From: a virus
IMG/VR virus record: IMGVR_UViG_3300048033_001213
Coordinates: 1 to 22,795 of that record
Reading direction: 5' to 3' (one strand)
DNA: 22,795 nt
The first letter of the stretch is position 1; each line of letters opens with the position of its first letter. Below, piece by piece: positions 5,143-22,795 of the stretch. The notes below the pieces were generated by a model. It was given only the letters and a program-made list of their open reading frames with translations, was not told where the DNA came from and searched no databases. A program made the translations under genes and the position numbers.

Positions 5143-5188
5143 ATTAAAAAATTTTGATAAGTCAAGAATATTTCGGATATTAGTGGAA

Positions 5189-5746
5189 ATGATTAACTTA
5201 AAAAATCGAAAAATGGAAAACGTAAAAAGACAAAAAAGAAAAGTTGGAGTTGCTGGTGGATTTATCAATCAGATGATGGGCAACAATTCATCAATCCCCG
5301 TGGTCGGTGAAGGTGCAACAGAATTAATGTATTCGGATAGACATCCTTATGAAGTTGTTAAAGTTTCAGACGATGGAAGTTCTTGTGAAATTAGAGAAAT
5401 GGATTATGAATTTATCGGATCAGGTTATGGAGATGAAAGATACAAGTTGAAAAGCAATCCTTCAGGTTTTAAAAAGACATTAGAATGGAACGAGAGAAAA
5501 GGTTGCTGGTGTTACATTACTTATTCTGTTGAAATTATAAAATCATTGGACAGGAAATTAACAAAGCAATTTGGAATGTGGAGTGTTCTTGATAATTTGC
5601 CAAACGGAGTTACTAAAAAGGATATATATAATGAAAATGGAGAGGGGTTTAAATTGATCGAAGGAGTTACCAAAAGATACAAAAACAGAAATAAAATTTC
5701 AATATATTTTGGTCAGGCTGAAAAATACCAAGATCCACATTTTTAA
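5189..5746 (+). CDS. Conserved-looking phage protein of unknown function
   Basis: A 185-residue protein with a basic N-terminus (MENVKRQKRKVG). Next come a VVGEGATELMYSDRHPYEVVKV segment, a likely small beta-barrel of about 70 residues containing YEFIGSGYGDERYKLKSNP, and an aromatic, Cys-containing patch (LEWNERKGCWCYITYSVE). The C-terminus is charged (KLIEGVTKRYKNRNKISIYFG). No enzyme motif is visible. Starts possible in this frame are GTG 5183, ATG 5189 and ATG 5213. The 5213 start lies in the A-rich context common here and gives MENVKRQ. Two terminators of similar design flank the gene, so it is a transcription unit of its own inside the virion gene block. I recall similar hypothetical proteins in uncultured marine phages, with no assigned role. 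Confidence 0.7.
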   Translation: MINLKNRKMENVKRQKRKVGVAGGFINQMMGNNSSIPVVGEGATELMYSDRHPYEVVKVSDDGSSCEIREMDYEFIGSGYGDERYKLKSNPSGFKKTLEWNERKGCWCYITYSVEIIKSLDRKLTKQFGMWSVLDNLPNGVTKKDIYNENGEGFKLIEGVTKRYKNRNKISIYFGQAEKYQDPHF

Positions 5747-5848: not shown

Positions 5849-6199
5849 ATGAAGATTTTGACAACAAGCACTTCAAACCAAACAATCAAGGTTGTGCCAA
5901 GAGAATATGTTACGACAGCTTCGTTGGTTTTAAGAGACGATACAACAAACACAGAAACCACAGATAGTGTTACTCCAACAACAATTGGAGACTATTTACA
6001 AATAGAAAATGCATACACTTTGAAGGAAAGCAGGTTTTATGATCTTACTTTAAAAAATTCCGGTGGCTCTGTGATTTACAAGGACAAAGTTTTTTGCACA
6101 GATCAAACAGTCGATCAAAGCACAAACAATTATTATTCAGTTAATGATTCTGTTTATACCACAGACACAACATACGATGACGATTACATTTTACTATGA
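5849..6199 (+). CDS. Small beta-rich protein next to the portal
   Basis: A 116-residue protein, rich in Thr, Asp, Ser and Tyr, with alternating strands: TIKVVPREYVTTASLVLRDD, then YTLKESRFYDLTLKN and VIYKDKVFCTDQTVDQ. The C-terminus is acidic (TTYDDDYILL). No catalytic motif is visible. It overlaps the portal gene by ATGA, suggesting translational coupling and a virion role. The same gene order, a small Thr-rich protein then portal, is familiar to me from uncultured marine phages, where it is annotated hypothetical. A head-tail interface or tail-associated protein is a reasonable but unproven guess. Confidence 0.7.
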   Translation: MKILTTSTSNQTIKVVPREYVTTASLVLRDDTTNTETTDSVTPTTIGDYLQIENAYTLKESRFYDLTLKNSGGSVIYKDKVFCTDQTVDQSTNNYYSVNDSVYTTDTTYDDDYILL

Positions 6200-7953
6200 A
6201 AGATATTTCGATTGTAAACTTAAATAGTTACACAACTCCAAAGGTAATTGAATACCGAAACAAAGAATGGATTTCCTATGGAGAGCAAAACGATTATTTT
6301 CAGCACTTGATTGATCGTTACAACGGAAGCCCAACAAACAACGCAATCATTAACGGCCTTTCTGATATGATCTATGGCGATGGATTAGATTCAACAGATT
6401 CGTCAAGAAAGCCGGAGGAATATGCCAAGGCACTTTCTCTTTTCACAAAAGACTGTGTGAGAAAACTTGTTTATGATCTTAAATTGATGGGGCAATGTTC
6501 AATGCAGCTTATTTATTCAAAGGATAGAAAAACAATTGCAAAGGTTGAGCATTTTCCGATAGAAACATTAAGGGCAGAAAAAAGCAATGATGATGGAGAA
6601 GTCGAAGCTTATTATTATCATCCAGATTGGTCAAAGGTAAAACCAAACGACAGCCCAAAAAGAATACCGGCTTTTGGTACTTCAAAAGAAAACATTGAAG
6701 TTTTGGTTGTAAAGCCTTATCGTGCTGGATTTTATTACTTCTCTCCTGTTGATTATCAAGGTGGACTTCAATATTCAGAACTTGAAGAAGAAATTGCAAA
6801 CTACCATATCAACAACATTCAAAATGGATTAGCACCTTCAATGCTCATAAACTTTAACAATGGAATTCCAAGTGACGAGGAAAGGGAAATGATCGAGCAA
6901 AGAATCTACAAGAAGTACTCAGGAACTTCTAATTCTGGAAAATTTATACTTGCATTTAACGATAGTGCTGATCAAGCTGCAAACTTACAAACTGTTGAAT
7001 TATCAGAAGCGCACGCACAATATGAGTTCCTTTCAAACGAAGCATCAAGAAAAATACTTGTAAGTCATAGGATCGTCTCTCCGATGCTTTTTGGCATAAA
7101 GGATCAGACTGGCCTAGGTAATAACGCAGACGAGCTTAAAACAGCTTCTATTTTGACTGACAACGTTGTGGTAAGACCATTCCAAAGATTATTGATTGAT
7201 GCGTTTGATCAAGTCTTGGCTTTCAACGGAATTTCAATTAACCTTTATTTCAAAACATTACAACCACTTGAGTTTGTTGATGTTGATAATATTGCAGACA
7301 AAGAAACAAGAGAAGAAGAAACTGGAGTAAAAGAAAATCTTACAGCTTTATCATTGTACGAAGCAGAAGATTGGTTGGAACACTTAAAAGATGTTGGCGA
7401 AGATGACTTTGACGAAGAAGAATACGAATTGATAGATTCTGAAATTGTTGATGATGAGGAACCGGAAGATTTTGATGTTGAAGAATATCTGAATGGGATA
7501 AAATTATCTGCAAATCAAAAGTCAAAAATTGATGACAAGTTCTACAAGGTGCGTTATAAGTATGTGAAAGGAACAAAAAGAAGCCCAAAGAGTGACAGTA
7601 GATTGTTTTGTTCAAAAATGCTGAGAATAGGCAAGTTGTACCGAAAGGAAGATATTATCAGAATGGAAAAAGATGGTGTCAATAAAAGCCACGGACACAA
7701 AGGGGAAGCTTACTCAATATTTAAGTACAAAGGTGGTGTAAATTGTCATCATAGATGGGAAAGAAGAATATACAAGAAAAGAAAAAAAGTTGATGGATCA
7801 CCTTATGGTGGAAGCCCATTGACTGGAACAAAGTTTGTGAACGTAAATCAAGCTGTGCGAGAAGGATTTAAACTTCCGAAACAACCTACTGAAGTTTCAG
7901 TTGCACCGGTTGATATGCCGGATCAAGGACATCACCCAAATTGGAGACCATAA
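6196..7953 (+). CDS. Portal protein with C-terminal Cys/His domain
   Basis: A 585-residue protein. The first 400 residues have portal features. NDYFQHLIDRYNGSPTNNAIINGLSDMIYG is the typical opening, then comes a QCSMQLIYS strand. IANYHINNIQNGLAPSMLI is followed by a stem/crown section with ASRKILVSHRIVSPMLFG. A very acidic linker (about 395-440) leads to an extra domain. In it, RLFCSKM (Cys472) and GGVNCHHRWERR (Cys517, His518, His519) resemble the Cys/His pattern of Mu gpF or SPP1 gp7-type minor head proteins. Such proteins are usually separate and bind the portal, so this looks like a fusion. The portal is the DNA gateway that docks the terminase. It ends in TAATG shared with the next gene. 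Confidence 0.85.
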   Translation: MKDISIVNLNSYTTPKVIEYRNKEWISYGEQNDYFQHLIDRYNGSPTNNAIINGLSDMIYGDGLDSTDSSRKPEEYAKALSLFTKDCVRKLVYDLKLMGQCSMQLIYSKDRKTIAKVEHFPIETLRAEKSNDDGEVEAYYYHPDWSKVKPNDSPKRIPAFGTSKENIEVLVVKPYRAGFYYFSPVDYQGGLQYSELEEEIANYHINNIQNGLAPSMLINFNNGIPSDEEREMIEQRIYKKYSGTSNSGKFILAFNDSADQAANLQTVELSEAHAQYEFLSNEASRKILVSHRIVSPMLFGIKDQTGLGNNADELKTASILTDNVVVRPFQRLLIDAFDQVLAFNGISINLYFKTLQPLEFVDVDNIADKETREEETGVKENLTALSLYEAEDWLEHLKDVGEDDFDEEEYELIDSEIVDDEEPEDFDVEEYLNGIKLSANQKSKIDDKFYKVRYKYVKGTKRSPKSDSRLFCSKMLRIGKLYRKEDIIRMEKDGVNKSHGHKGEAYSIFKYKGGVNCHHRWERRIYKKRKKVDGSPYGGSPLTGTKFVNVNQAVREGFKLPKQPTEVSVAPVDMPDQGHHPNWRP

Positions 7954-16927: not shown

Positions 16928-17138
16928 ACAAATGATTGATTTTTATAATGAAATGAGTGCAAAAGATCTTGAATACTTTTTAAACTTGACAGTCCAAAGA
17001 TTGGTTGTTCCAAGAGCAGAGGATGAAGGAGTTTGCTGTGAAGAAGTTGATATGATCACATTGAATGGAATATATTTTGATGTAGTCACAAAGCCGTTTT
17101 TAGAAATATGTTTACAAAAAAAAGAAAAAGATGAATAA
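16917..17138 (+). CDS. Small acidic protein before the exonuclease
   Basis: A 73-residue protein from ATG 16917, overlapping its neighbours by 11 and 8 bases; a longer frame from 16842 would run deep into the previous gene. KQMIDFYNEMSAKDLEYFLN, VQRLVVPRAEDEGVCCEEVD, then FDVVTKPFLEICLQKKEKDE. A Cys-Cys pair sits in the acidic middle. No known domain. Tight coupling to the exonuclease suggests a possible inhibitor, cofactor or host-nuclease modulator, as often found beside phage exonucleases, but this is speculation. Confidence 0.6.
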   Translation: MTNKQMIDFYNEMSAKDLEYFLNLTVQRLVVPRAEDEGVCCEEVDMITLNGIYFDVVTKPFLEICLQKKEKDE

Positions 17139-17970
17139 TATAAAGTTACTAAATGGAGAAGTTTGGAATGAAAAAAAGATACTTCTCGAAATGCGAGATG
17201 ATAATTTCTACTATGATTATCTTTCAACAGAAAGAGTGTTAAGTAAATCTTCAATAAGCGGATTGATACCACCAAAAAGTGCCAAAGCTTGGTACTATGG
17301 AACAGGAAAGAAAAATAGTGAAGCTGCTTTCAGGGCAGGAAGTTTGTTTCATTGGGCAATACTTGAGCCTGAAAAGTACGAGGACGTTTATTTTAGCAAG
17401 TACAAAACAAGAAGGGCGCAGGCATTTAAAGATGAAAGACAAAAAGCCGGAAAGGAAATATATACAGAAGCTGAAAGAAGCTTTAATCAAACCCTTGTAT
17501 CAGAGTTTACTGTGAACAAAAAAGCAATGCAAAAGCTTTCGAACTGTCAAAGTGAGGTGCCATTAATTGGCAATTTATTTGGCCTTCCCTTTCGTGGAAA
17601 AGCTGATCTTATTTCAGATGATGGAAGAATGTATGATTTAAAAACTTGCGGAGACCTTGAGGATTTCCCAAAAAGTGCTTACGCTTATGCTTATGACATT
17701 CAGGTTTACATTTATTGTGAGTTGTATGGAGCCAAGCCTGAAGATTTTGAGTTTCTTGTAATTTCAAAGAACACATATGATATAGGATTTTATCCGGTTG
17801 ACAAAAGCTTCTATGATCAAGGAAAAGAAAGGCTACAACTTGCTTTAGAAGTTTATAATGCAATATTCCACGAAAAGACAGATGAGCAGATACGAGAAAC
17901 CCTAAACGAGATAACCTACGAAAACAAATTATATTCATTAAAAAAATACAGCAATGTTAAAAGCACCTAA
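17131..17970 (+). CDS. RecE/exonuclease VIII-like PD-(D/E)XK exonuclease
   Basis: A 279-residue protein matching the PDDEXK_12 (exodeoxyribonuclease VIII-like, DUF3799) group. The N-terminal STERVLSKSSISGLIPPKSA is the usual opening. RAGSLFHWAILEPEKY (68-83) carries the conserved His74. LPFRGKADLI (Asp159) and MYDLKTC (Asp169, Lys171) form the nuclease core. YDIQVYIYCELYG (188-200) is the Q-x-x-x-Y motif. Such enzymes resect double-stranded ends 5' to 3', usually paired with a RecT- or Erf-type annealing protein. No annealase is recognisable here, so the SSB-like proteins or host proteins would have to serve. It overlaps the DnaA-like gene by 17 bases. Confidence 0.85.
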   Translation: MNNIKLLNGEVWNEKKILLEMRDDNFYYDYLSTERVLSKSSISGLIPPKSAKAWYYGTGKKNSEAAFRAGSLFHWAILEPEKYEDVYFSKYKTRRAQAFKDERQKAGKEIYTEAERSFNQTLVSEFTVNKKAMQKLSNCQSEVPLIGNLFGLPFRGKADLISDDGRMYDLKTCGDLEDFPKSAYAYAYDIQVYIYCELYGAKPEDFEFLVISKNTYDIGFYPVDKSFYDQGKERLQLALEVYNAIFHEKTDEQIRETLNEITYENKLYSLKKYSNVKST

Positions 17971-18409
17971 ATTAAAAAAGAAGTTAACCAAAAGTTCTGC
18001 TCTTTCACAATATGAAGCACAGCAAATTGCAAGAAGAATTAAAAAGCTGACAGATATTGATGTTTTTAAGAAAACAAGAAGGCAAGATTGCGTTTACGTA
18101 CGATCAGTTTTTAATCACACTTTGAGCAAGGTTTTTGGTTGGGGATTGTCAAGAATAGCAATGCTTTATAAAGCTAATGGCTACAAGCAATATGATCACG
18201 CTACTGTTTGGCATTCTTTAAATATGTTTGATCTTTATATTCAGTATGAGCCAACCTTGATGAATTTGTATGAAACAGTCGCAACGCACACAAAGAACAA
18301 AAATGCATTAAGGATTTTGATACACAACAAGTTGAAAGGTTTGGCACCGGAGCAATTGGAAGCAATCAACACCTTGACAGATACATTTTATAAAGAGAAC
18401 GAAGTATGA
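17954..18409 (+). CDS. DnaA domain IV-like DNA-binding protein
   Basis: A 151-residue protein. Residues 40-95 follow the DnaA C-terminal DNA-binding pattern: a basic start (KKTRRQDCVYVRSVF), a middle helix (WGLSRIAMLYKANGYKQY), then DHATVWHSLN (81-90). The last closely resembles the DnaA signature DHTTVxHA that contacts the DnaA box. No AAA+ ATPase domain is present. The C-terminal 50 residues are helical (LRILIHNKLKGLAPEQLEAI). It could mark the phage origin and recruit host machinery, sequester host DnaA boxes, or act as a repressor. It overlaps the glycosyltransferase gene by ATGA. Confidence 0.7.
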   Translation: MLKAPKLKKKLTKSSALSQYEAQQIARRIKKLTDIDVFKKTRRQDCVYVRSVFNHTLSKVFGWGLSRIAMLYKANGYKQYDHATVWHSLNMFDLYIQYEPTLMNLYETVATHTKNKNALRILIHNKLKGLAPEQLEAINTLTDTFYKENEV

Positions 18410-19098
18410 TACCACAACAAATACATCAGATATTCTTTTCTTTTAACGGATCAAAGCTTGAGGACTTTCCTTTATTTCAGCAAAGCATCACAAGTATGAA
18501 AGAGAAAAACCCAACGTTTGATTGTTTGGTTTGGACTGAAAAAGGGGTTGAAGAATTAATCACAAAGCATTATCCTGAATTTTCTGAGTTTTACAAATCT
18601 CTTGATTATGACATAATGCGTCACGACTTTGCAAGAATGGTTATCCTTCATCGCTTTGGAGGATTTTATGTAGATATGGACAACGTGGCTTTAAAAAGTT
18701 TTGAGCCATTAACAGAATACAAGATGGTTTTGAGCAGCATCAAGCATATCAAACCAAAACACAGAGAATTTGTTATCAACGACTTTATGGGCTTTAAACC
18801 AAAGCACCCTTTAACATCTTATTATTTGAATCAATGTCAAGAAAACTATTTGCAGAAAAAGTCGATTGATGTTTACAGAGAATGGAAAGTAAGATTTGTA
18901 ACGCAAACAACTGGACCGAAGTTCTTCTCAAGGCTTCTCAAGAAATACTACCCAAACTACACACCTATGCAACTTGCATATATGAACACCAAAGACACCT
19001 TGCAGAAATATTGGAAGGATGATAATTTGGAATTAAACAAAGAAGATTATTACTTTGAGGAAAAATTTGCAGGTTCGTGGATTAAATCAATGATATGA
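18406..19098 (+). CDS. DXD-motif glycosyltransferase (GT32/Gly_transf_sug-like)
   Basis: A 230-residue protein starting IPQQIHQIFFSFNG, the usual opening of this family (I-P-x-x-I-H-Q-x-x). The donor site is visible as RHDFARMVILHRFGGFYVDM then DNVALK (72-97), where RxDxxRxxxLxxxGGxYxDxD is the family signature; Asp90 and Asp92 form the DXD that binds metal and sugar nucleotide. Relatives transfer sugars to glycans or proteins, but some phage copies sit in DNA-modification clusters. Here ATGA overlap links it to the ParB-like gene, with a second glycosyltransferase and a dioxygenase following. It may add or extend a sugar on an oxidised base. Glycosylation of the Thr-rich virion protein is an alternative. 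Confidence 0.82.
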   Translation: MIPQQIHQIFFSFNGSKLEDFPLFQQSITSMKEKNPTFDCLVWTEKGVEELITKHYPEFSEFYKSLDYDIMRHDFARMVILHRFGGFYVDMDNVALKSFEPLTEYKMVLSSIKHIKPKHREFVINDFMGFKPKHPLTSYYLNQCQENYLQKKSIDVYREWKVRFVTQTTGPKFFSRLLKKYYPNYTPMQLAYMNTKDTLQKYWKDDNLELNKEDYYFEEKFAGSWIKSMI

Positions 19099-19670
19099 TA
19101 AAAAAAGTAAACATTTCAGAAGTAAAGAAAAACCCTGACAATCCAAGATTGATCAAGGACTACAAGTATCAAAAGCTTGTAAGGAGTTTAAAAGACTTTC
19201 CAAAGATGCTTGAATTAAGGCCTATTGTCGTAAACAAGGATATGGTTATACTTGGTGGCAATATGCGTTATCGTGCGAGTATGGATGCCGGACTCAAAGA
19301 AGTTTGGATTAAAATTGCAGAACTTACACCGGAACAAGAGAAAGAGTTCATCATTAAAGATAATTCAAGTTTCGGAGAATGGGACTGGGACACACTTGCA
19401 AATGAATGGGATATTCAGGATTTAAAAGAATGGGGGTTGGACTTGCCAACTGTATATTTTGATGATGATGAAGAGCCAAAGTTTGATGAAGAAGAATTAT
19501 CTCAGGAATTAGATGCGTACATAAACGCAAATATCAAGCAAATTGTGTTGCACTACAACACGGAAGATTATGAAGCTATGATGGAAAACCTTGAAAAATT
19601 AAAGGAAAAGGAATCTGCCGAGGATAATAGTGCGTTGGTAAAAAAGCTGATTGATGAAAGGCTTTCCTAA
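19095..19670 (+). CDS. Solo ParB-like (ParB/Srx-fold) protein
   Basis: A 191-residue protein. Residues 1-75 form a ParB N-terminal domain: ISEVKKNPDNPRLIKDYKYQ, LRPIVVNKDMVILGGNMRYR, AGLKEVWIKI. The GGNMRYRA (54-61) box corresponds to the nucleotide-binding G-x-x-R-x-x-A motif. The stretch EFIIKDNSSFGEWDWDTLAN then LKEWGLDLP is the linker that in many phage proteins joins this domain to a DNA methyltransferase, but no methyltransferase domain follows. The remainder is acidic (FDDDEEPKFDEEELSQ) and ends in a helix. Solo ParB-like proteins occur in phage clusters with TET/JBP oxygenases, where they may target or regulate modification. It is not a partition protein: no ParA partner is seen. Confidence 0.78.
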   Translation: MIKKVNISEVKKNPDNPRLIKDYKYQKLVRSLKDFPKMLELRPIVVNKDMVILGGNMRYRASMDAGLKEVWIKIAELTPEQEKEFIIKDNSSFGEWDWDTLANEWDIQDLKEWGLDLPTVYFDDDEEPKFDEEELSQELDAYINANIKQIVLHYNTEDYEAMMENLEKLKEKESAEDNSALVKKLIDERLS

Positions 19671-20496
19671 AATATTTGTTCCAAGCTTAAACAGAGAAGA
19701 TGGACTGAAGGTTGTTGATCTGATTGATGGGCTTCCTTTTATCGTTTTGCTTCACGATGAAGAACAGCTTGAGAAGTATCAAAAGAATTACCCTGACCTT
19801 GAGTTTGTTGTTACAAACATACCACTTGGGGATCACGCAATGATCAAAACAAGAAACTTTGTTTACGACAATCTTGTGGAAGATGGCGAATGGTTTATGT
19901 TTTTAGATGATAACAATGACAAGATCACAAGGGTTGATGATGACCATTATGGATTTCAAAGCCTTGATGTAAAGTCAGACAAAAAATTTCAAGATGTTTA
20001 TTCAACTGAATGTACATTGAAAGAAATTGCACCACTTATCTTGAGAGACATTTCACTTGCGGAAAGAACAGGTGTCAGGCACATAGGATTTGCACCAAAC
20101 CCAAACTATTTTTTCAGGCCAAAGAAATATGGAAACATAGGTTACTCGAAAGGAAATGCTACCATCACTAAAAAGAATGGACTGCGATGGGATGAAAACC
20201 TCAAGTCAATGGATGATTATAGCTTTTCTGCTCAACATATTGCAAAGTATGGAAGGTTGCTTTTAAACTATTTTATTTGCTTTCACAAAAGTCATTATTC
20301 AAAGGGAGGAATCGGCACTCAAGAAGAAAGACTTCCAATGAAGCTTTATGATTGCAAATACTTGATTGAAAAATATGATGGCCTTCTGCGTTATTCAAAT
20401 AAGAAGGGTGCAATAAAAAATTCTGATTTAGCATTTCGCATCCGGAATATGGATTCAATAAAAAAGTGGAGAGCAAGGTTCTATGAAAAGATTTGA
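19654..20496 (+). CDS. TET/JBP-associated-type GT-A glycosyltransferase
   Basis: A 280-residue protein from ATG 19654 (TTG at 19651 is in frame). KIFVPSLNREDGLKVVDLI opens a Rossmann-like GT-A fold. FIVLLHDEEQLEKYQKNY then VVTNIPLG precedes RNFVYDNL and GEWFMFLDDNNDKITR, where Asp85-Asp86-Asn87 are the expected metal and sugar-nucleotide ligands. Later RWDENLKSMDDYSFSAQHIA then YGRLLLNY fits the acceptor-side acidic motif, followed by His-rich CFHKSHYSKGG. This arrangement matches the TAGT family encoded beside TET/JBP dioxygenases in phages, thought to glycosylate hydroxymethylated bases. The dioxygenase gene overlaps its 3' end by 14 bases. Confidence 0.75.
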   Translation: MKGFPKIFVPSLNREDGLKVVDLIDGLPFIVLLHDEEQLEKYQKNYPDLEFVVTNIPLGDHAMIKTRNFVYDNLVEDGEWFMFLDDNNDKITRVDDDHYGFQSLDVKSDKKFQDVYSTECTLKEIAPLILRDISLAERTGVRHIGFAPNPNYFFRPKKYGNIGYSKGNATITKKNGLRWDENLKSMDDYSFSAQHIAKYGRLLLNYFICFHKSHYSKGGIGTQEERLPMKLYDCKYLIEKYDGLLRYSNKKGAIKNSDLAFRIRNMDSIKKWRARFYEKI

Positions 20497-21391
20497 TTTA
20501 GAAAGAAAGGAAGTTGATATTGCAAAATTCAAAAAGAGATCAGCATACTTGAGTGATGTAACAAATGTGATCAAAGAAGATTGCATCATATATTCAGACG
20601 GAACTCCAGTTATCCTTTACAGTACATTACCATCAAAAGAAACTTCTCACTTGCGGTGGGCTGTCAAGAACACAAACTTCATCACAGGAAAAAGAACAAG
20701 AGGATTGGCACACACAAGCAGAACCTTTGGCTTTGCACCAAGGATTGCAATGCGACAAGATTATTGCCATTCATCATCTTATGCTTATGATCAACCCAAG
20801 CATCATTATGTTGTTTCAAAGTTTTCTGAAAAACTGTCAAACATCTATCAAAAGTACTTCCCGAATGTGTTTGAAGATCATAGCGAAAAAGTAAAAGAAA
20901 AGATCAAGCCTGAATGGAAAATTGCAAACACACCATTCACAAGCGGAATCATAAACAAAAACAACCCATTAAAATACCACTTTGATCAAGGAAACTTCAA
21001 AGGAGTGATGTCGAATATGATTGCATTCAAAAAAGATGTTACCGGTGGCCATCTTGTAATTCCCGAATTTGACATAGCACTTGAGATTGCAGATAACTCA
21101 CTCACGATCTTTGATGGTCAGGACATTCTTCACGGAGTTTCAGGATTTGATCGGGACAATGATATGGGTTACAGATATACAATCGTTTACTACTCCTTAG
21201 AACAAATGTGGAAGTGTGAACCAATTGATGATGAGGTTGTCAGAATTCGACAGGTAAAACACGAAAGAGAAAAGAAAAGACTTGATCCTGAACATTTAGA
21301 TGTGTTGAAGAAAAGGAGAGATGAACTGCAAGAGCATTCAGACAAAGAGATAGCACTTAACAGAATAAAGAATGAACAAAATCGAACATAA
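20483..21391 (+). CDS. TET/JBP-like 2-oxoglutarate/Fe(II) dioxygenase
   Basis: A 302-residue protein with a double-stranded beta-helix core at about 150-245. LKYHFDQGNFKGVMSNMIAF gives the HxD iron ligands (His166, Asp168), and the shared N-x-x-h pattern follows. DVTGGHLVIPEFDIALEIAD has the GG-x-L-hhP strand. LTIFDGQDILHGV gives the distal His217. YRYTIVYYS gives Arg231 for 2-oxoglutarate. This combination resembles TET/JBP enzymes, which oxidise the methyl group of 5-methylcytosine or thymine in DNA. The N-terminal 110 residues may contact DNA (TGKRTRGLAHTSRTFGF). A charged C-terminal helix follows. It lies directly after a TAGT-like glycosyltransferase. Another dioxygenase acting on protein or nucleotide remains possible. 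Confidence 0.72.
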   Translation: MKRFDLERKEVDIAKFKKRSAYLSDVTNVIKEDCIIYSDGTPVILYSTLPSKETSHLRWAVKNTNFITGKRTRGLAHTSRTFGFAPRIAMRQDYCHSSSYAYDQPKHHYVVSKFSEKLSNIYQKYFPNVFEDHSEKVKEKIKPEWKIANTPFTSGIINKNNPLKYHFDQGNFKGVMSNMIAFKKDVTGGHLVIPEFDIALEIADNSLTIFDGQDILHGVSGFDRDNDMGYRYTIVYYSLEQMWKCEPIDDEVVRIRQVKHEREKKRLDPEHLDVLKKRRDELQEHSDKEIALNRIKNEQNRT

Positions 21392-21725
21392 AAAAAAGGC
21401 ATTACTCGAAGCATTAGAGAAAAGCTTAGGAGTTGTTACAACAGCTTGTAAGCAAGTTGGCATTGGTCGAACAATGTTTTATGAGTATTTGAAAGATGAA
21501 GAATTTAAAGGTCAAGTCGATGATCTTCAGGATGTAGCTTTAGACTTTGCAGAAAGTCAGCTATTCAAACAGATACAAAAAGAAAGTACCGCAGCGACAA
21601 TCTTCTACCTTAAAACCAAAGGAAAGAAAAGAGGATATGTTGAGAGACAAGAAATAACTGGAGGGGATGGATTACCCAACGACATTACAATCGAAATTGT
21701 CAAAAGCAAAGGTCAGAACAAATGA
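21372..21725 (+). CDS. terS: Terminase small subunit (phBC6A51-like HTH)
   Basis: A 117-residue protein. A helix-turn-helix lies at about 10-40 (LLEALEKSLGVVTTACKQVG, IGRTMFYEYLKDEEF). A helical oligomerisation region follows (LQDVALDFAESQLFKQIQKE), then the characteristic TAATIFYLKTKGKKRGYVER, seen in small terminases of the phBC6A51 type. It binds the packaging site and hands DNA to the large subunit. It overlaps the dioxygenase gene by 20 bases and the large subunit by 59 bases, so packaging is translationally tied to the modification cassette. The C-terminus (IVKSKGQNK) is basic. Confidence 0.85.
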   Translation: MNKIEHKKKALLEALEKSLGVVTTACKQVGIGRTMFYEYLKDEEFKGQVDDLQDVALDFAESQLFKQIQKESTAATIFYLKTKGKKRGYVERQEITGGDGLPNDITIEIVKSKGQNK

Positions 21726-22795
21726 GGTCTGTCAGCATCTTCTCGATAGCAACAAAAAGATAGTTGTTGAGCAAGGTGGGACAAGGTCAGGAAAAACCTA
21801 CAACATTCTTGTTTGGATCATTTTCCATTATGCACCAAAGAACAGAGGCAAGACAATAACGATTTGTAGGAAAACTTTCCCTGCGTTGAGGGCATCAGTT
21901 ATGAGAGACTTCCTTGACATCTTAAAAGATCAAGGTATGTATAGGGAAGAATACCACAACAGATCATCATCAGAGTACATCTTATACAATAACCTTGTTG
22001 AGTTTATTTCTTTGGATCAGCCACAAAAGGTCAGAGGAAGGAAGAGAGATTTGCTTTTCATAAACGAAGCCAACGAATTGTTTTGGGAAGATTGGCAACA
22101 ATTAATATTCAGGACAGAGGGAAGAATCATAATTGACTACAACCCATCTGATGAATTTCATTGGATATACGACAAAGTAATTCCAAGAGAAGATGCAGAC
22201 TTCTTTCAAACAACATACGAGGACAATCCTTTTTTGTCAGATACAATCGTTAATGAGATTGAAAGGTTAAAAGAAACAGATGAGCAATACTGGCAGATAT
22301 ACGGACTTGGAGAAAGAGGTGCATCAAGGTCAACTATATTCCGATATATCGAAGTGGAGAAAATCCCTGAGAAGGCTTCTTTTTTATCCTATGGAATGGA
22401 TTACGGATATACCAATGATCCTACAACCTTGGTAGGAGTTTGGATTGATGAGTACAATTTGTACGTAAAAGAGTTTCTGTTTCAGCGTATGATGACCACA
22501 ATAGACATTCACAGGTTCTTTCAAAAAATGCAAATAGACAGGCAACCAGTCTTTGCAGATTCCGCAGAGCCAAGACTAAATGATGAGTTGCGGAGAATGG
22601 GTTGGAATGTAAGACCAAGTATTAAAGGAAAAGATTCTGTAAACGCAGGTATTGATCTGCTCAAGAGATACAAGATACACCTTACAAGCGGAAGCGAAAA
22701 CTTAATATCAGAGTTCAGAAATTACAAATGGCGAGAAGATCGTAATGGCAGGGTCTTAAATATTCCAGAGGATAAGGCGAATCACACCACCGATG
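21667..22795 (+). CDS. terL: Terminase large subunit (cut by window end)
   Basis: 376 complete codons up to 22794; the last base starts the next codon. ATG 21667 is the first ATG after an in-frame stop. TTG 21697 is an alternative giving MSKAKVRTNEV. The ATPase has Walker A GGTRSGKT (37-44), Walker B LLFINEANE (129-137) and the coupling motif IIIDYNPS (155-161). The nuclease has GMDYGYTND (Asp245), FADSAEP (Asp298) and NHTTD (Asp376), the three acidic positions of the RNase H-like fold. It is of the PBSX/Terminase_3 type. It pumps and cuts concatemeric DNA at the portal. If the window is circular it continues at position 1 and ends at 38 (388 residues). Confidence 0.9.
   Translation, partial: MDYPTTLQSKLSKAKVRTNEVCQHLLDSNKKIVVEQGGTRSGKTYNILVWIIFHYAPKNRGKTITICRKTFPALRASVMRDFLDILKDQGMYREEYHNRSSSEYILYNNLVEFISLDQPQKVRGRKRDLLFINEANELFWEDWQQLIFRTEGRIIIDYNPSDEFHWIYDKVIPREDADFFQTTYEDNPFLSDTIVNEIERLKETDEQYWQIYGLGERGASRSTIFRYIEVEKIPEKASFLSYGMDYGYTNDPTTLVGVWIDEYNLYVKEFLFQRMMTTIDIHRFFQKMQIDRQPVFADSAEPRLNDELRRMGWNVRPSIKGKDSVNAGIDLLKRYKIHLTSGSENLISEFRNYKWREDRNGRVLNIPEDKANHTTD

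Follow-up and report, generated by a model that had tools for sequence, protein, structure and literature searches.

The question raised by the locus described here is what its enzymes modify and, if the target is DNA, which base is altered. The locus is a cassette of four overlapping genes in a 22,795-base IMG/VR virus record (IMGVR_UViG_3300048033_001213; this whole stretch is referred to as the window), a fragment which starts within the structural-gene block and stops inside terL. The cassette encodes a GT32-type glycosyltransferase, a solo ParB-like protein, a TAGT-like glycosyltransferase and a TET/JBP-type Fe(II)/2-oxoglutarate (2OG) dioxygenase. An earlier note had proposed that a DNA base is oxidised and then glycosylated. 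The current study indicates that the cassette is probably a post-replicative DNA hypermodification operon reading through into the packaging genes, with thymine as the likelier substrate.

A conserved cassette with a TET-type oxygenase

The oxygenase gene (20483..21391, + strand, 302 amino acids (aa)) matched PF12851 (Tet_JBP) at 3.7e-12 and 46.2 bits (cut-off 34.9). The HxD...H Fe(II) triad and the 2OG arginine (H166, D168, H217 and R231), which the earlier note had pointed out as HxD, distal His and Arg, were invariant across a set of 28 homologues drawn from isolates as well as viral contigs. The structure model (predicted local distance difference test (pLDDT) score 83.6) showed a TET-type double-stranded beta-helix. 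Its best 26 matches in the PDB all belonged to the TET family (CcTet at 2e-12, CMD1, NgTet1 and TET2); most of those ranked below were FTO and AlkB-type nucleic-acid demethylases. Judging from sequence and model, the predicted activity of the protein is hydroxylation of 5-methylpyrimidines in the DNA polymer. The earlier note had named a non-nucleic-acid dioxygenase fold as one result that would speak against its reading. A prolyl hydroxylase or other 2OG enzyme of that kind, accompanied by ordinary polysaccharide transferases, has in its favour nothing but the general breadth of the superfamily. It was rejected on account of the Tet_JBP match over the cut-off and the fold search, and such an explanation is highly improbable.

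An NCBIfam search matched neither the TET nor the TAGT protein. In public records, phage TET/JBP genes were found under the names queuine tRNA-ribosyltransferase, DpdA-like transglycosylase or SNF2 DNA repair protein (NC_051587.1 gp2 and KF301602.1, 59353-60681; PHROG 6059 likewise), and because of such wrong labels they escape name-based searches.

The other three cassette genes precede the oxygenase on the same strand, in the order GT32-type (Gly_transf_sug, DXD) glycosyltransferase (18406..19098, +, 230 aa, PF04488), solo ParB-like N-domain protein (19095..19670, +, 191 aa, PF02195) and TAGT-like GT-A glycosyltransferase (19654..20496, +, 280 aa, PF20691; ATG start at 19654, TTG at 19651). 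All four proteins exceeded the curated Pfam cut-off. The genes overlap by 4, 17 and 14 nucleotides (nt), and TET overlaps by a further 20 nt with the terminase small subunit gene terS (21372..21725, +), which is followed by the large subunit gene terL (21667..22795, +; truncated where the window stops, with an uncertain start codon). The terS product matched helix-turn-helix (HTH) profiles and several PHROG terminase small subunit profiles (best E 5.5e-5), and the terL product matched PF04466 (Terminase_3, 8e-21) and PF17288 (5e-12). The open reading frame (ORF) analysis agreed with the coordinates, order and three overlaps given in the earlier note, and the 20-nt overlap bears out its statement that the cassette leads directly into terS and terL. 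A promoter scan gave no greater signal than shuffled sequence, and repeats in the cassette were just short, low-identity families of two or three copies.

Two scans of IMG/VR, the first with the oxygenase as query, found 78 and 14 relatives, 92 viral contigs in all, many with the locus cut short. ParB was present in 81 of these loci, terS in 82 and terL in 83, and terS lay no more than 150 nt behind TET in 78 of 82 contigs. Such recurrence of the neighbourhood, in 92 viral contigs, shows that the cassette is not a chance arrangement. A contig of an Ignavibacteria metagenome-assembled genome also carries ParB, TAGT and TET (47% identity) followed by putative packaging and portal genes.

The ParB-like protein matched PF02195 (ParB_N) at 7.7e-7 over residues 2-91 only, and ParB/Spo0J chains in the PDB at E 1.3e-4. 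It contains the sequence GGNMRYRA, which resembles a CTP-binding box, and the profile matches reported no HTH domain. Its probable role is that of a DNA-loading or targeting partner.

Two glycosyltransferases and an exchangeable slot

The TAGT-like protein matched PF20691 at 1.6e-6 and 28.6 bits (cut-off 27.5) in the N-terminal half of the profile only, and this is the weakest of the four Pfam assignments. It also matched phrog_842 (beta-glucosyl-HMC-alpha-glucosyltransferase) at 1.5e-8, and its structure model (mean pLDDT 88) resembled the GT-A enzymes TarS, LARGE1 and GlfT2 in the PDB. With all four proteins over the Pfam cut-off and with concordant TET and TAGT folds, the enzyme assignments of the earlier note stand. 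Its order of oxidation before glycosylation agrees with these families and folds, and with the fixed TET and swapped tailoring slot described below. It is very likely that TET and TAGT act on phage DNA, and equally likely that the target of TAGT is the oxidised base.

In 70 of 81 relatives, ParB and TET are separated by one gap of the size of a gene (709-906 nt). The proteins encoded in this slot joined one similarity network in 58 cases, many of them matching TAGT. Among representatives, TET identity to the window protein was 49-79%, while that of the slot protein dropped from 99% to 14-30%. In three relatives (L056, L058 and L059; TET 61% identical) the slot held an amino acid:DNA transferase (ADDT; PF18724, 1.5e-8), an FAD-dependent oxidoreductase and a P-loop kinase. 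The fixed part of the system is therefore ParB, TET and terminase, and the tailoring enzymes are swapped, which would fit oxidation as a shared first step followed by diversifying decoration.

Further tailoring genes were seen around TET. Between TET and terS, locus L073 (3185-5605) holds an uncharacterised tailoring set of glutamine amidotransferase, GNAT acetyltransferase, ADDT and P-loop kinase. A protein of 297-301 aa without a Pfam match lies in the slot or just after TET in five loci (L046:958-1863, L054, L075:6691-7596, L068:10839-11732 and L069:4863-5756). These five proteins were grouped as one family by eye, and are possibly a new DNA-decorating transferase. In Arthrobacter phage Altadena, ParB and TET are followed by TAGT and a gene annotated as a glucosaminyl deacetylase (L139:5696-7044), which hints at an N-acetylglucosamine-type sugar and its subsequent deacetylation. 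Next to TET, an FkbM-type methyltransferase gene is present at L082:16431-17132 and at L138:6899-7597 (cyanophage MED4-184 and pelagiphage HTVC112P); these enzymes may methylate the added sugar or perform another tailoring step.

The GT32-like protein matched PF04488 at 1.4e-14 and contains the motif YVDMDN, in keeping with the DXD noted earlier. Its best PDB sequence match, a weak one, was an Och1-type mannosyltransferase. The claim that the cassette encodes two different transferase folds was not upheld: the TAGT model is GT-A and GT32 is an established GT-A family, so that two families of one fold class are present. Of the relatives with enough upstream sequence, 13 of 59 had GT32, in each case 5-65 nt 5' of ParB, and it had zero matches among 50,697 phage records. 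The nearest relative (L002; TET 94% and TAGT 99% identical) lacks it. There, the upstream gene is joined to ParB by an ATGA-type overlap; in the window, overlaps of the same type lie at both ends of GT32, with the upstream gene on one side and ParB on the other. The two loci thus differ cleanly, by this gene alone.

Nearly all relatives have the TAGT slot, whereas only some have GT32. The first sugar is therefore more likely to come from TAGT, with GT32 contributing a second or an alternative sugar. Phages T2 and T6 make 5-hydroxymethylcytosine (hmC) at the nucleotide level, and their TAGT shares the family (PF20691) and GT-A fold class of the window enzyme. Unlike in T2 and T6, no hydroxymethylase partner was found here, and the window TAGT probably acts first. 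The T2/T6 enzyme places glucose on glucosylated hmC, i.e. adds a second glucose (PMC13216743), and by this precedent the reverse sugar order may also apply here. Hydroxymethylation at the nucleotide level was set aside as improbable, as no thymidylate synthase-type hydroxymethylase was detected in 35 records.

The transferases might also have other targets. TET could modify DNA while GT32, and perhaps TAGT as well, is merely co-transcribed with it and has another acceptor for its sugar, for example a virion protein or a polymer of the cell surface. GT32 relatives generally act on glycoproteins, glycolipids and oligosaccharides, and the optional occurrence of GT32 and its absence from the 50,697 phage records agree with such a role. 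Its constant position just upstream of ParB argues against it, as does, in the case of TAGT, the naming of that family for its TET association and its place beside TET in most relatives. This alternative is considered somewhat unlikely, and the chance that GT32 acts on the same glycan as TAGT appears slightly better than even.

Thymine or cytosine as the oxidised base

A published phage pathway on cytosine consists of a C5-methyltransferase, TET and a glycosyltransferase (PMC12730594). In the current study, no C5-methyltransferase over the PF00145 cut-off was found in the window and 48 relatives, in 10 further relatives or in 15 isolate genomes, and, since the window is a fragment, this is a result at the level of the lineage. 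A motif search revealed a 217-aa compact C5-methyltransferase adjoining the TET gene of locus L120, which PF00145 detects at 1.4e-7. A profile for compact phage C5-methyltransferases matched its positive controls L120 and L252 and gave no match in the window or in 38 relatives and 9 isolates. The relative G056, which appears complete at ~33.4 kb since its ends share a 101-nt overlap (99%), contains ParB, a transferase, TET, terS and terL, and no C5-methyltransferase was found in it. Because the lineage is without a C5-methyltransferase in the sampled genomes, thymine rather than cytosine is favoured with fair confidence as the oxidised base.

The TET phylogeny separated two groups (support 100/100). 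The group of the window TET has Asn three residues past the HxD Asp in 103 of 103 sequences, whereas the other has Asp there in 90 of 91 and includes both C5-methyltransferase-linked cases, L120 and L252, so that the window enzyme and the methyltransferase-linked TETs fall in separate clades. The deepest ParB-linked TET sequences have long branches. Human TET2, a 5-methylcytosine (5mC) enzyme, aligned with Asn at this site, and the TET of pelagiphage HTVC112P is ParB-linked yet of the Asp type. Asn versus Asp was therefore set aside as proof of the substrate, and the alignment marks the site as no more than a candidate for specificity.

The competing explanation is that the oxygenase acts on 5mC provided by the host or by an unrecognised methyltransferase, and that the transferases glycosylate the resulting 5-hydroxymethylcytosine. 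The phage TETs described in the literature act on 5mC, as summarised in PMC12730594; L252 combines C5-methyltransferase, TET and TAGT, and L120 C5-methyltransferase and TET; and the window TET shares its Asn with TET2. One relative (G008/L014) gave the single divergent candidate of the motif scans, a compact C5-methyltransferase-like ORF (G008, 27170-27838, - strand; SPPCTSYS ... VENPRG). Opposed to this explanation are the window and 58 relatives lacking a C5-methyltransferase over the cut-off, the apparently complete G056, and the separate clade of the methyltransferase-linked TETs. The cytosine explanation is rather unlikely.

Besides the G008 ORF, several points weigh against thymine. The window is a fragment, as are most relatives; host-made 5mC is a possible substrate; and methyltransferase families of unrecognised type could escape the searches. 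TETs of the Asp group (T4-like and P12024L-like) are also mostly without a recognisable C5-methyltransferase, so its absence is not clade-specific. The ADDT and kinase set of L059 was dropped as support for thymine, since in L120 ADDT and kinase stand beside a C5-methyltransferase and the set is no proof of thymine.

Several side observations concern these methyltransferases. The G008 ORF (G008:C1), the only methyltransferase of that relative, corresponds to L080 and to L014 from about 3069, and has a homologue in L266. Gene gp28 of Nonlabens phage P12024L was rejected as a C5-methyltransferase; it has DPPYG and matches N6_N4_Mtase. Two cytosine-type clusters run parallel to the ParB-type ones: L120 (1883-5718) has the compact C5-methyltransferase, TET, and then a region over the ADDT cut-off and a kinase, and L252 (1954-5249) has the compact C5-methyltransferase, TET and then TAGT. 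The compact methyltransferase of the L120 type occurs in hundreds of IMG/VR stretches, with TET nearby in only 1 of 79 loci inspected.

Burke et al. (2021, PNAS) are said to have found that phage TETs act on 5mC, and phage clusters of C5-methyltransferase, TET and glycosyltransferase have reportedly been described by them and by Pyle et al. (2024, Cell Rep). The window system resembles these reported clusters in having TET/JBP beside glycosyltransferases, with several sugars possible, and in the proposed role in restriction evasion and packaging. It differs from them in that no C5-methyltransferase was found in its lineage and in adjoining ParB and terminase. In the Bacteroidota phage P12024L, TET also lies next to TAGT, but there the TET belongs to the Asp-type clade, has an N6/N4-type methyltransferase beside it, and is situated away from the terminase genes.

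The ParB, Tet-like, aGPT-PPlase2 and 5-hydroxymethyluracil kinase genes of Rhodococcus phage Tonitrus have been interpreted as a thymidine hypermodification set (PMC11955845). In Tonitrus and related actinophages, as in the window, a ParB-like and then a Tet-like gene head the packaging genes, and a C5-methyltransferase was not found. Unlike Tonitrus, which has ADDT (aGPT-PPlase2) and a kinase, the window has TAGT and GT32; some of its relatives hold an ADDT and a kinase which resemble those of Tonitrus. The predicted logic is analogous to base J synthesis in kinetoplastids (JBP1/2 and a glucosyltransferase), where thymine in DNA is oxidised and then glycosylated. No J-binding domain was recognised in the window system, which is analogous only.

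Link to packaging and significance

In the pathway proposed here, the ParB-like protein would load on phage DNA and recruit the enzymes, and TET/JBP would hydroxylate a 5-methylpyrimidine in the DNA, conversion of thymine to 5-hydroxymethyluracil being likelier than oxidation of 5mC. The TAGT-like GT-A enzyme would then glycosylate the hydroxyl to give a base-J-like nucleotide, and GT32, where present, would add a second or alternative sugar. The position of the genes, leading into terS and terL, suggests that modification would be late, before or together with packaging. Its purpose would be to hinder host nucleases; glycosylated oxidised bases are known to disguise phage DNA from restriction.

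The link to packaging inferred in the earlier note was strengthened by the relatives. TET abuts terS in most of them, as described above, and ParB-TET pairs precede the terminase in isolates as well: several actinophages have ParB, TET and then ADDT or TAGT with a kinase ahead of the terminase, and in cyanophage MED4-184 the ParB and TET pair, with the FkbM-type gene between them, also precedes it. This very tight order of ParB, TET, terS and terL in distant phages would equally suit a regulatory or packaging mark, in which sparse modification flags the DNA for the terminase and ParB serves as reader. Such a mark, rather than a shield, is distinctly unlikely, as the exchangeable and fast-diverging slot better fits an arms race with nucleases.

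Outside the cassette, the structural-gene block includes an XkdF-type protease (35-1648) and a portal (6196-7953), and the cassette is flanked upstream by an exonuclease (17131-17970). Within the structural block, a 187-aa ORF (5183-5746) had no match in any of 7 long relatives, which do match its immediate neighbours. The window also carries DUF6712 and a CCDC81-like HU domain, both associated with Bacteroidota. These two domains and the Ignavibacteria relative suggest that the host is probably a Bacteroidota-type bacterium.

The kind of system is already known, since TAGT is a named Pfam family and ParB and Tet-like clusters were noted in actinophages. Clusters of TET, TAGT and ParB in phages are already recognised, and the novelty implied by the earlier note is lowered to that extent. 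New here are the window member with two transferases and the methyltransferase-less ParB-TET-terminase core with its exchangeable slot. It is tentatively suggested, at a little short of an even chance, that these phages make glycosyl-hydroxymethyluracil in DNA straight from thymine, without a methyltransferase or a modified nucleotide pool, by a widespread pathway that is ParB-targeted, tied to the terminase and provided with an exchangeable slot for sugars and amino-acid-type additions.

The lineage offers a clean test, with a fixed oxygenase and ParB, swapped tailoring enzymes and two close phages differing by GT32 alone. DNA marking or sequencing would gain useful reagents in new DNA glycosyltransferases and in a methyl-independent thymine oxygenase. 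If the substrate is thymine, many TET-bearing phages would have been assigned to the wrong base, and phages would possess a bacterial counterpart of kinetoplastid base J.

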